Source: Acidobacteriota bacterium
GTDB taxonomy: Bacteria > Acidobacteriota > Vicinamibacteria > Vicinamibacterales > CAVVIG01
Assembly (NCBI GenBank): GCA_023265175.1
Contig: JAHFUI010000019.1
Location: 1 to 43,755, forward strand
Reading direction: 5' to 3'
DNA: 43,755 bases
Shown here: piece after piece, positions 26,186 to 36,003 of the stretch
How positions within the stretch are numbered: position 1 is the first letter of the stretch
Layout of the letters: the number at the start of each line of letters is the position of its first letter
Made by a program: the position numbers and the translations under genes
The notes under the pieces: generated by a model
Told to the model about the DNA's origin: nothing
Databases searched by the model: none
Seen by the model: only the letters and a program-made list of their open reading frames with translations

Positions 26186-26741
26186 GCGTCCGAACCCTCA
26201 GCATGTCGAGAATCATGATCGCCACGCCGACGGTGATCGCTGAGTCCGCGACGTTGAATGCCCAGAAGTGATGCGTCTCCCAGTACACATCGACGAAATC
26301 CACCACCGAGCCGGCGGCGATCCGATCCAGAAGATTTCCGGCGGCGCCGCCGATGATGAGCGCCAGGCCCGTTCGCGCCACGAACTGGTGAGGCGCGAGG
26401 CTGGCCGCGTACATACCGACGCCGATCAGTGCGGCGGTGGCGACGGCGGCGATAGCCACCGTCTTGAACGGGAAGTCCGAGGTATTCAGGATCCCGAACG
26501 CCGCGCCCGTGTTCAGCACGTGCGTGAAACCCATGAAGCCCGGCACGATCGTGATGCTCGAATACAGCGGGATGTTGGCACGCACGAGGGCCTTCGTGAG
26601 CTGATCGAGCGCGACGATGACGATCGGCAGCCAGATTTCGAGGCGCCGGATGCGCACGCGGTCCTCGCGTGCGATCGCCCCGATGTCCTCCGACGAGGCG
26701 CCGGCGGGTTCCGTGAGTGCCGACTCGGTGTGATCAGCCAT
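26166..26741 (-). CDS. lspA: Lipoprotein signal peptidase
   Basis: Aspartic peptidase that removes the signal peptide of diacylglyceryl prolipoproteins. With ATG 26741 it has 191 residues and four membrane helices. The catalytic aspartates are in GGAAGNLLDR (139) and FNVADSAIT (166); LDQLTKALVR and NTGAAFGIL are also family segments. The frame is open to 26900, but those residues are low complexity and partly read through a palindromic repeat. No good ribosome site marks either start, so the exact N-terminus is uncertain. Confidence 0.93.
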   Translation of the reverse strand: MADHTESALTEPAGASSEDIGAIAREDRVRIRRLEIWLPIVIVALDQLTKALVRANIPLYSSITIVPGFMGFTHVLNTGAAFGILNTSDFPFKTVAIAAVATAALIGVGMYAASLAPHQFVARTGLALIIGGAAGNLLDRIAAGSVVDFVDVYWETHHFWAFNVADSAITVGVAIMILDMLRVRTHVSKTV

Positions 26742-26755
26742 TGACGTTGCGTTAG

Positions 26756-26807
26756 GCGCGCGGGGCCCCACTTTCATTAACTCGCGCCGGGGCCCCACCC
26801 CCGGCGC
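26756..26807. repeat. Palindromic element with GGGGCCCCAC core between ileS and lspA
   Basis: A 9-base-pair hairpin GCGCCGGGG-CCCCAC-CCCCGGCGC lies at 26784-26807. A near-copy of its first half, GCGCGGGGCCCCAC, ends at 26771. The same core and loop recur at 35681-35708 upstream of prfA. Confidence 0.8.
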
Positions 26808-26871
26808 TGTTGCTCGGCGCATCCACGCCTCGCAACGGCTCAAGGCTGCCACGCGCCCTCGTCCGGCGGGA

Positions 26872-33591: not shown

Positions 33592-34449
33592 TTAGACCCG
33601 CTGTGTGATCGCCGTTCGCGCGATTCCCTGCAGATCGCGGCGGAGGCCGACCATCGCGAGCCCGGACGTCTTCGCAACCAACTCCTCGACCGACACATCC
33701 TGGCCGAAGCCGAACTCGCACATCAAATAGCCGCCAGGCCGCAGGCGGCCGGCCGCCTGCCCCACGAACGTCGCGACCAGGTCGAATCCGGTCTCGCCGC
33801 CGAAGAGCGCGACCGACGGCTCATGCTCGCGCACTTCGAGCTGCAGCGCGGGCCGATCGCCCTGGCGGACATACGGCGGGTTCGCGACGATGAGATCGAA
33901 GGTCTGGTGGACGCCGTCGAGTACGTTCGTCCGAAGGAATCTGATCCGGTCGGCGACGCCGTGGCGTTCAGCGTTTCGCCGGGCGACATCGAGCGCAGCA
34001 TCGGAGATATCGGTCGCCACGACACACGCGCATGGAAACTCGCGCGCGAGCGCGACCGCCAGACATCCGCATCCGGTTCCCACGTCGGCGACGGCCATGC
34101 TTCGTGTCCGATCGGCGCCGAAGTGTTCCAGCGCGGCTTCGACGATCAGCTCGGTTTCGGGCCGCGGAATCAGGACCGCCGGCGAGACTTCGAACGAGAG
34201 GTCCCAGAATTCCTGCCGGCCCGTGATGTACGCGGTCGGCTCGCGCGCGGCGCGCCGGGCGATCAGCGCGTCGTAGCGTTGCGCGAATGTGGACGGTTCG
34301 GGCTCGTTCGAGGCGGTGAAATACCGGGCGGCATCCCACCCGAGGACGTGTTGGGCGAGCATGCGGGCGCTCAGCTCGGCTTCATTGGCGCCGATGCCGG
34401 CATCACGCAGGGTTTGGCGGGCGGCTGCCACGCGTTCCTGAATGGTCAA
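33592..34449 (-). CDS. prmC: Peptide chain release factor glutamine methyltransferase
   Basis: Methylates the glutamine of the GGQ motif in RF1/RF2. With a TTG start at 34449 it has 285 residues. An N-terminal helical domain recognises the release factor; the SAM loop is [14 protein letters not shown] (about 122-135) and the catalytic NPPY is at 190-193. The TTG overlaps the prfA stop (TTGA), typical of coupled translation. A much longer upstream frame overlaps prfA and is spurious. It acts on the product of the gene just before it. Confidence 0.95.
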
Positions 34450-35522
34450 GACACCGCCGTGGCGTCTTTCAGCTTTTCGGATTGGTGGTACGCGATCACG
34501 TTGTCGAGGAGCTCGGCCAGATCGCCGTTGAGCACATCGTCCAGTCGATAGGTGGTGAAGTGCGCGCGATGATCGGTCACACGTTGTTCCTTGAAATGGT
34601 ACGTGCGAATCTTTTCCGATCGATCGCCGGAGCCCACCTGGCTGCGCCGGTCCTTTGCGATCGCGTCCTGCTGCTTGCGCAGCTCCATTTCGTACAGCCG
34701 CGAGCGCAACACCTTCATGGCTTTCGCACGGTTCTTGATCTGTGACTTCTCGTCCTGCTGGGAGACCACGACGCCAGTGGGAATGTGCGTGATGCGTACA
34801 GCCGAATACGTCGTGTTGACGCTCTGGCCGCCAGGCCCGCTCGAGCAGAACGTGTCGACGCGCAGCTCCTTTTCGTTGATCTTGATGTCGACTTCTTCGG
34901 CCTCTGGCAGGACGGCGACCGTGGCCGTCGACGTATGGACCCGACCGCTCGCTTCGGTGGCCGGCTCGCGCTGCACGCGATGCACGCCGCTCTCGTACTT
35001 CAGCCGGCTGTACACGCCGCGCCCCTCGATTGTCGCAATGACTTCCTTCAGACCACCGACGCCGGTCTCGTTGCTCGACAGGATCTCCAGCCGCCATCCT
35101 TGGCGCTCGGCGTACTTGCTGTACATCCGGAACAGGTCGGCGGCGAACAGCGCCGCTTCGTCACCGCCCGCGCCCGCGCGGATTTCGAGGACGACGTTCT
35201 TCTGGTCGTTGGGATCCTTCGGCACGAGGAGCGCCTTGAGCTCGCCGAGGAGGACGTCGCGTCGCGCTGTCAGCGATTTCAGCTCCTCGTGCGCGAGCTC
35301 GCGCATGTCCGCGTCGGCGCCCGCGCTCGCGAGCTCCTCGGTTTGCGCGATGTCGCGCGCGATCGTCTTGTACTCGCGGAAGCGCTGGACGAGCGGCTCG
35401 ATCTCGGACAGCGCCTTGGCGTGCTTCCGGTACTCGGACGAATCCCCTTGCACCTCGGACGTACCGAGAATCTCCATGAGAGCGTCGTACTGCCGCTCGA
35501 CGGCTGTCAGCTTATCGAACAT
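34446..35522 (-). CDS. prfA: Peptide chain release factor 1
   Basis: Recognises UAA and UAG. It has 358 residues, with the GGQ loop SGPGGQSVN (about 228-236) and the RF1-type PAT in [10 protein letters not shown], which distinguishes it from RF2. No frameshift site is present, as expected for RF1. Only a weak ribosome site lies before ATG 35522; the stem-loop region at 35528-35708 sits directly upstream and may influence it. Confidence 0.96.
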
Positions 35523-35527
35523 ATTTT

Positions 35528-35708
35528 CTAGCGAGGCTGCGCCTCAGACCCACGAGAAACATGACGGTCCCGGCGCAGCTTCGCTAGTTCCACCTTTATC
35601 ACAGCCCCGCTTCGCGGGGGCTAGCCGTCTTGACTGAAAACTTGACCCGTGTGGTGCAAGTTTTGGGACTCAAGACGGCTAGCGCGTGGGGCCCCACCCC
35701 CACGCGCT
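35528..35708. repeat. Cluster of four inverted repeats between moaD and prfA
   Basis: Four palindromes lie in a row: CTAGCGAGGCTGCGCC with GGCGCAGCTTCGCTAG (35528-35543/35572-35587); AGCCCCGC-TTC-GCGGGGGCT (35603-35622); a long pair starting GCTAGCCGTCTTGA (35620-35644) and ending TCAAGACGGCTAGC (35658-35684); and AGCGCGTGGGG-CCCCAC-CCCCACGCGCT (35681-35708). The last shares its loop with the hairpin at 26784-26807. Function unknown: structured RNA, terminator cluster or a small mobile repeat are all possible. Confidence 0.85.
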
Positions 35709-35757
35709 ACCAGACCTTCGCCCTCGAGCGTAGACTCTCGGGCTCGGCAGACTTCCT

Positions 35758-36003
35758 TCATCCCCCGGACACCGGCGGGAGAAACGCAATCTCGTCGCCG
35801 TCGCGCAGCGGCGCGTCCATGCGCGCGTAATCGGCGTTGATCGCGGTCGAGATCGATCGCCCGTACGGTTCCAACGCGGGGTACTCCGTCGCGAGTTGCC
35901 GCCAGACGCTGCCGACGGTGGCGTCCGGGCCGACGTCGCGAGCCAGCTCGGACGCGCCCGCGACATCGCGAAGCCGCGCGAACAGCCGGACGGTCACACG
36001 CAC
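35758..36003 (-). CDS. moaD: Molybdopterin synthase small subunit
   Basis: Sulfur carrier for the molybdenum cofactor. It has 81 residues, starts VRVTVRLFARLRDVAG and ends in the required double glycine (LPPVSGG). GTG 36003 has GGAG eight bases upstream; the GTG at 35997 that overlaps the moaE stop (GTGA) is the alternative, giving 79 residues. The C-terminal thiocarboxylate is transferred to precursor Z by MoaE, which is encoded just before it. No other moa gene is in the window. Confidence 0.9.
   Translation of the reverse strand: MRVTVRLFARLRDVAGASELARDVGPDATVGSVWRQLATEYPALEPYGRSISTAINADYARMDAPLRDGDEIAFLPPVSGG

Follow-up and report, generated by a model that had tools for sequence, protein, structure and literature searches.

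The window, the whole stretch of 43,755 nt that was analysed, carries prfA, a ThiS-family moaD-like gene, moaE, lspA and ileS, all identified with Pfam. The moaD-like gene is probably moaD, judging from the adjoining moaE. The gap between moaD and prfA (35523-35757) was found to hold four stems within 35528-35708 and a fifth beyond them. The features of this region are:

34446-35522, minus strand: prfA (peptide chain release factor 1), from Pfam PCRF and RF-1 domains and the gene call; start codon at 35520-35522
35528-35682, no strand: element (a), 155 bp, CTAG-bounded, with three modules, defined from repeat copies in its own genome
35528-35587, no strand: module A of (a), a palindrome with 16-bp arms (inverted repeat 35528-35543/35572-35587, 94%)
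35605-35619, no strand: module B of (a), a small 6-bp stem, CCCCGC-TTC-GCGGGG, from sequence and fold
35620-35683, no strand: module C of (a), a palindrome with 14-bp arms (35620-35633/35670-35683, 100%) and inner 8-bp arms (35637-35644/35657-35664)
35680-35747, minus strand: element (b), consisting of hairpins 1 and 2
35680-35709, minus strand: hairpin 1 of (b), arms 35680-35691/35698-35709 (100%), core 35688-35701
35715-35747, minus strand: hairpin 2 of (b), from pattern search and fold; it reads CC-GA-GCCC-GA-GAG-TCTACG-CTC-GA-GGGC-GAA-GG on the coding strand, where GA forms internal loops
35758-36003, minus strand: the moaD-like gene upstream of prfA, from the Pfam ThiS family and the gene call

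A preliminary description had reported the four stems as one region ahead of prfA. The stems were present and above chance. RNA folding of 35523-35757 gave -128.9 kcal/mol, against -92.1 ± 4.6 for shuffled sequences (z -7.9), and 35520-35757 contained four perfect inverted-repeat centres whose arms measured 8 or more, whereas 300 dinucleotide shuffles gave a mean of 0.17 and a maximum of 2. On the other hand, they did not form a single unit. The first three belong to (a), a separate repeat, and the last is hairpin 1 of (b), which overlaps the final CTAG of (a) and whose partner, hairpin 2, falls outside the range first described.

Hairpin 1 of (b) has a stem of variable sequence that encloses GGGG-CCCCAC-CCCC, which reads GGGG-GTGGGG-CCCC on the coding strand. 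Its core, GGGGCCCCAC, had been noticed also in a hairpin between ileS and lspA. It was confirmed there at 26789-26798 and occurred once more at 26762-26771, so that the window gave four matches, one site being scored on each strand, compared with an expectation of 0.05. The layout at this second site is:

26784-26807, minus strand: second copy of (b) hairpin 1, in the ileS-lspA gap, with the stem GCGCC/GGCGC
26755-26857, minus strand: nested layout around that inner copy, with outer arms GGCGCG (26755-26760) and CGCGCC (26852-26857) and a half core (26762-26771)

The core GGGGCCCCACCCC was present in 52 copies in the own genome (G000), and in none in the reversed control. A constant core with a differing outer stem had been proposed to indicate a selected structure or a small dispersed element. 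The results supported this: the core occurred at 52 genome sites rather than at two, and the differing outer stems remained complementary in the own genome and in others.

Along the coding strand, the copies of (b) show, in order, a second hairpin of one of several kinds, a stem, GGGG-GTGGGG-CCCC, the partner of that stem, a stretch rich in A and, in many cases, ATG. The 51 contexts with the 14-base core gave 48 distinct arm pairs; counted outwards from the core, five positions were paired in 47, 47, 36, 37 and 40 cases, respectively. Over six positions, 223 of 288 were paired in the 48 own arm pairs, compared with 142 ± 9 (maximum 176) with shuffled arms; other genomes contributed 31 arm pairs (an own-genome pair from L196 left out), in which 146 of 186 positions were paired, against 94 ± 6. 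The copies are related by descent, and these counts, as well as those of orientation below, are not independent. The complementary stems may be kept either by selection or by the mode in which the element is copied.

Only 2 of 207 own stem pairs were G-U, which speaks against selection on RNA alone. A-G and G-A occurred together at positions three and four in eight own copies and five others, where they could form tandem G-A pairs.

The frequent pattern of hairpin 2, CC-GA-NNNN-GA-GAG-TCTACG-CTC-GA-NNNN-GA-GG, gave 29 matches in the own genome (reversed control 0) and was present in 8 of 27 family genomes. The search prescribed GA, allowing no more than one mismatch, and left the NNNN arms free, so the constancy of GA is by construction. 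The free arms were complementary in 36 of 40 distinct contexts. Of these, 34 were the self-complementary GGCC or GCGC, and the rest were the GCCC/GGGC of the window and its reciprocal, GGGC/GCCC.

Of 51 copies of (b), 48 folded better on the coding strand than on the complement with RNA parameters, and 47 did so with DNA parameters. Part of this difference may come from G-U pairs in the folding model rather than from the G-A loops.

The positions of 83 copies of (b), 52 in the own genome and 31 in 29 loci elsewhere, were determined with a purpose-written gene caller. Sixty copies lay outside called genes and 23 inside; two had no downstream gene, which left 58 usable. The element faced the downstream gene in 55 of these (p 2e-13 if independent). 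The distance to the downstream start was 12-21 nt in 16 of 33 own copies and took other values in 17, while that to the upstream stop ranged between 20 and more than 300 nt. The possibility that (b) precisely fills the interval between the stop and the start codon was rejected, as its upstream modules and the stop positions vary.

The positions ahead of core-adjacent starts were rich in A, not U. Of the 22 core-adjacent starts, 9 had a GTAAA, AGTAA, GTGAA or GGTRA string within the preceding 20 nt and 13 did not; among 179 other starts, 15 had one (Fisher 2e-4). Shine-Dalgarno-like strings preceded 1 of 22 core-adjacent and 35 of 179 other starts, a difference that was not significant (0.14).

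The two junctions were compared among relatives. For ileS-lspA, lspA was found in 27 genomes, of which 25 loci were entered and 24 were assessable; the neighbour upstream is ileS in the window and was assumed to be ileS elsewhere. The two genes overlapped in 19 of 24. The gap was 4 nt in G014 and 95 nt, without a core, in G013, where the start was perhaps called late. Gaps with a core measured 130 nt in G000, 78 nt in G012 and 318 nt in G023. Compared with most relatives' matches, the called lspA in the window has about 28 additional N-terminal residues (26657-26741); many of those matches start only at residues 26-32, and a codon further downstream may be the real start of lspA.

The moaD-prfA junction was compared in 17 of 80 relatives' loci. 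The core was present in L057 and L059 only. Ten of the 17 had a gap of -16 to 41 nt, L071 had one of 333 nt without a core, and four had a different palindrome of the CGCAGAG type in 75-89 nt. L057 is among the closest relatives by PrfA (85% identity to the window); it and L059 appear to belong to G023 and G017, so that the two sets of relatives overlap. Hairpin 2 in L057 starts with the GCCC type as in the window, and a reversed (b) unit lies alongside, which suggests a later arrival.

At both junctions, most relatives had overlapping genes or short gaps and no (b). This indicated that (b) had been gained.

The CGCAGAG palindrome is a third repeat (CGCAGAG...CTCTGCG). It fills the moaD-prfA gap in L058, L060, L061 and L062, and part of it in L057, and thus the same junction is occupied by differing repeats.

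One (b) unit lay within the loop of another in the window (26755-26857) and in L003, L008, L011, L036 and L047; the layout in L011, L036 and L047 resembles that of the window. The nested copies had ragged edges, and no target duplication was demonstrated for (b). In L002 (G000:C80:17683-17994), (b) hairpins formed a tandem array with an 84-bp period, interrupted by an assembly gap. Repeats of the CACAAAGAGCACGAAGATCACAAAG type adjoined (b) copies in L054 and L056.

The core was present in 35 of 100 relatives. Within one family its copy number ranged from 0 to 328, several genomes having none. In a draw of 297 genomes from the phylum, 30 contained the 14-base core. Those outside the order had mostly 1 or 2 copies, no more than some reversed controls, except G260 with 8. 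The differences in copy number, together with the gains, argue for mobility of (b).

Y1_Tnp and Y2_Tnp were considered as movers of (b) and rejected, as no association was found. Y1_Tnp was absent from the own genome. In the family, it was present in 8 of 11 genomes with at least 20 core copies and 10 of 16 with fewer (Fisher 0.69); Y2_Tnp was present in 7 of 11 and 6 of 16, respectively (Fisher 0.25). No core lay in the flanks examined around the 10 Y1 matches in core-rich family genomes, three of these flanks being cut by contig ends.

A search of the gap against the own genome gave at least 10 other near-full copies of (a) (87-94%) and at least about 18 partial ones, many of which break at CTAG. 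Both figures are minima, since scoring covered 40 of the 107 candidates. The window copy has CTAG at 35528-35531, 35584-35587, 35621-35624 and 35679-35682. In 27 loci with flanks, the copies combined modules A, B and C in the forms A-B-C, B-C, A-B and C, and most of their ends and joints carried CTAG.

Among 27 family genomes, (a) was found in five: G000 (44 matches), G006 (10), G003 (4), G017 (1) and G023 (1). Y1_Tnp had no match in G000, G006 and G003, the three genomes richest in (a).

The ends of (a) were examined for a target site duplication in 33 copies, 25 from the own genome and 8 from G006; this set excludes G003, G017 and G023 as well as any copy truncated by a contig end or a gap. 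With ends sought up to 14 nt from the match, CTAG stood at the left end in 24 and at the right end in 30 of 33, and no true empty site was found. In 13 copies (a) supplied an adjacent called gene with its stop codon, at 15 ends in total, of which one was CTAA. G006 had three tandem copies of 135-136 bp each, spaced by 130-131 bp; the spacing is shorter than the unit because neighbours share a CTAG. These patterns suggest that (a) may duplicate CTAG upon insertion. CTAG itself occurred at 0.19 per kb in own-genome loci, overlapping loci being counted more than once, against 3.2 expected from base composition alone, or about 17-fold rarer.

We interpreted the moaD-prfA gap as colonised by two unrelated families of non-coding palindromic repeats. 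Element (b) would be a REP-like, lineage-specific (Vicinamibacterales), probably mobile intercistronic palindrome, and (a) a composite palindrome bounded by CTAG, MITE-like but not a MITE. The probability of this explanation as a whole was put at roughly 0.7. Dispersal, covariation, orientation bias, patchy presence at two junctions and nesting are directly supported. The two elements would move as discrete units.

According to this explanation, (b) would have spread until it occupied dozens of junctions, most of them between co-directional genes. The coding strand is the one that folds better, an A-rich stretch separates the hairpin from the next start codon, and the element is perhaps tolerated since that unstructured stretch remains before the start. 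Element (a) probably entered at a CTAG adjoining (b), which would have moved (b) away from the prfA start. Once transcribed, the hairpins would part the two cistrons of the mRNA. They may act as a 3' shield for the upstream message and leave an unstructured landing site for the downstream gene.

A more tentative alternative is that (b) is a mobile leader cassette, which inserts at operon stop-start junctions in one orientation and carries its own translation initiation context in the A-rich tail. It would uncouple overlapping genes because it brings this tail before the start, and it would persist because the downstream gene stays translated. The G-A internal loops, by favouring the folding of one strand, would point to an intermediate of single-stranded DNA or RNA and a novel enzyme. 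We regard this as possible but doubtful. The absence of the tail strings from 13 of 22 starts counts against it and, slightly, against the main explanation.

For (a), a reading independent of (b) is that it is a non-autonomous derivative of a CTAG-targeting DDE insertion sequence. Such insertion sequences are of the IS5 or IS630 type. The CTAG at most left and right ends and the tandem copies with a common CTAG would be expected of it. However, (a) has no terminal inverted repeats, as its left and right ends differ and only the single modules are palindromic; A-B, B-C and A-B-C forms all coexist; and no transposase was evident in translations read by eye at five further loci with partial copies. 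We consider this origin rather unlikely.

A conserved cis-regulatory RNA leader was also weighed. Here a common factor would bind GGGG-GTGGGG-CCCC in the 5' leaders of a regulon, and the stems would drift with compensation. The invariant loop, the covarying stems, the orientation bias, the start-codon distance shared by about half of the own copies and the better folding of the coding strand are all as such a leader predicts. It does not account for the lack of conservation of (b) among relatives at the two junctions compared, the same-family genomes without a core, the nested copies and the 84-bp array, or the near absence of G-U pairs. No Rfam family matched at the gathering score in the window and 13 loci, and two weak matches at a permissive E-value (0.28 and 2.6) were taken as chance. 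This explanation was judged improbable.

Intrinsic terminators or attenuators between operon genes would also appear as strong GC hairpins between co-directional genes. But a scan of the window copy (35400-35900) gave no terminator-like site, and the stretch before core-adjacent starts is rich in A rather than U, which makes this function very unlikely. The same scan gave no sigma-70 promoter-like site. An artefact of chance or base composition in a GC-rich genome is hardly credible: the stems are indeed GC-rich and the single copies in distant genomes are equalled by reversed-control counts, but the 52 own copies against none and the shuffles for core, fold and inverted repeats stand against it.

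No earlier description of (a) or (b) was found among the open-literature papers listed. Element (a) is like MITEs in being short, non-coding and dispersed, and most of its copies have CTAG at either end, reminiscent of a target duplication. It is unlike them in that its ends are not mutual inverted repeats and no partner insertion sequence was found.

Palindromic repeats are known from organelles too, the double-hairpin elements of Allomyces among them. Those of Volvox (PMC2670323) and the LIMP/HyLIMP repeats (PMC4524435) share with (b) nesting, an invariant loop and complementary stem changes, and the text available of these papers proposes selfish DNA or processing sites. They differ in residing in organelle genomes and, as far as that text goes, in showing no start-codon bias; no sequence relation is claimed.

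The closest likeness is to bacterial REPs. In the accessible portion of PMC3733652, GTAG and CGTC REPs are, as (b) is, short, high-copy, mostly intergenic palindromes, and like the present elements they have alternative complementary stem residues and occur as dimers and clusters. The GTAG termini described there supply stop codons of neighbouring genes, as the ends of (a) do. Unlike REPs, the arms of (b) (8 nt, in 48 own and 32 further pairs) had no common tag, GTAG and CGTC being sought this far out. Unlike GTAG REPs, (b) has no flanking RAYT (Y1_Tnp) gene, a gene that CGTC REPs also lack in the same account, and few G-U pairs, whereas GT pairing is described there as frequent in GTAG REPs. 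Uni-REPs are placed by that text near the 3' end of the upstream gene, at a variable distance from the downstream ORF; (b) shows the opposite, being tied to the downstream start (16 of 33 own copies at 12-21 nt) with a varying distance to the upstream stop.

The same source, in the part available, describes TIR elements with TIRYT transposases in Acidobacteria, likewise a palindromic repeat family of this phylum. Their motif, GGGGWSAS, is incompatible with GGGGTGGG, and the 10 Y1 matches were without a core. With its palindromic, high-copy and partly compensated character but a different tag, transposase link and position, (b) is thus REP-like but not a REP.

The best-described bacterial palindromic repeats lie near the 3' ends of genes and are linked to RAYTs; (b) points at start codons instead. 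It combines a constant loop with a stem rewritten in matched pairs, has no expected transposase nearby, and sits where the genes of relatives overlap. This makes it a natural test of how repeats spread and of how an inserted hairpin affects translational coupling.
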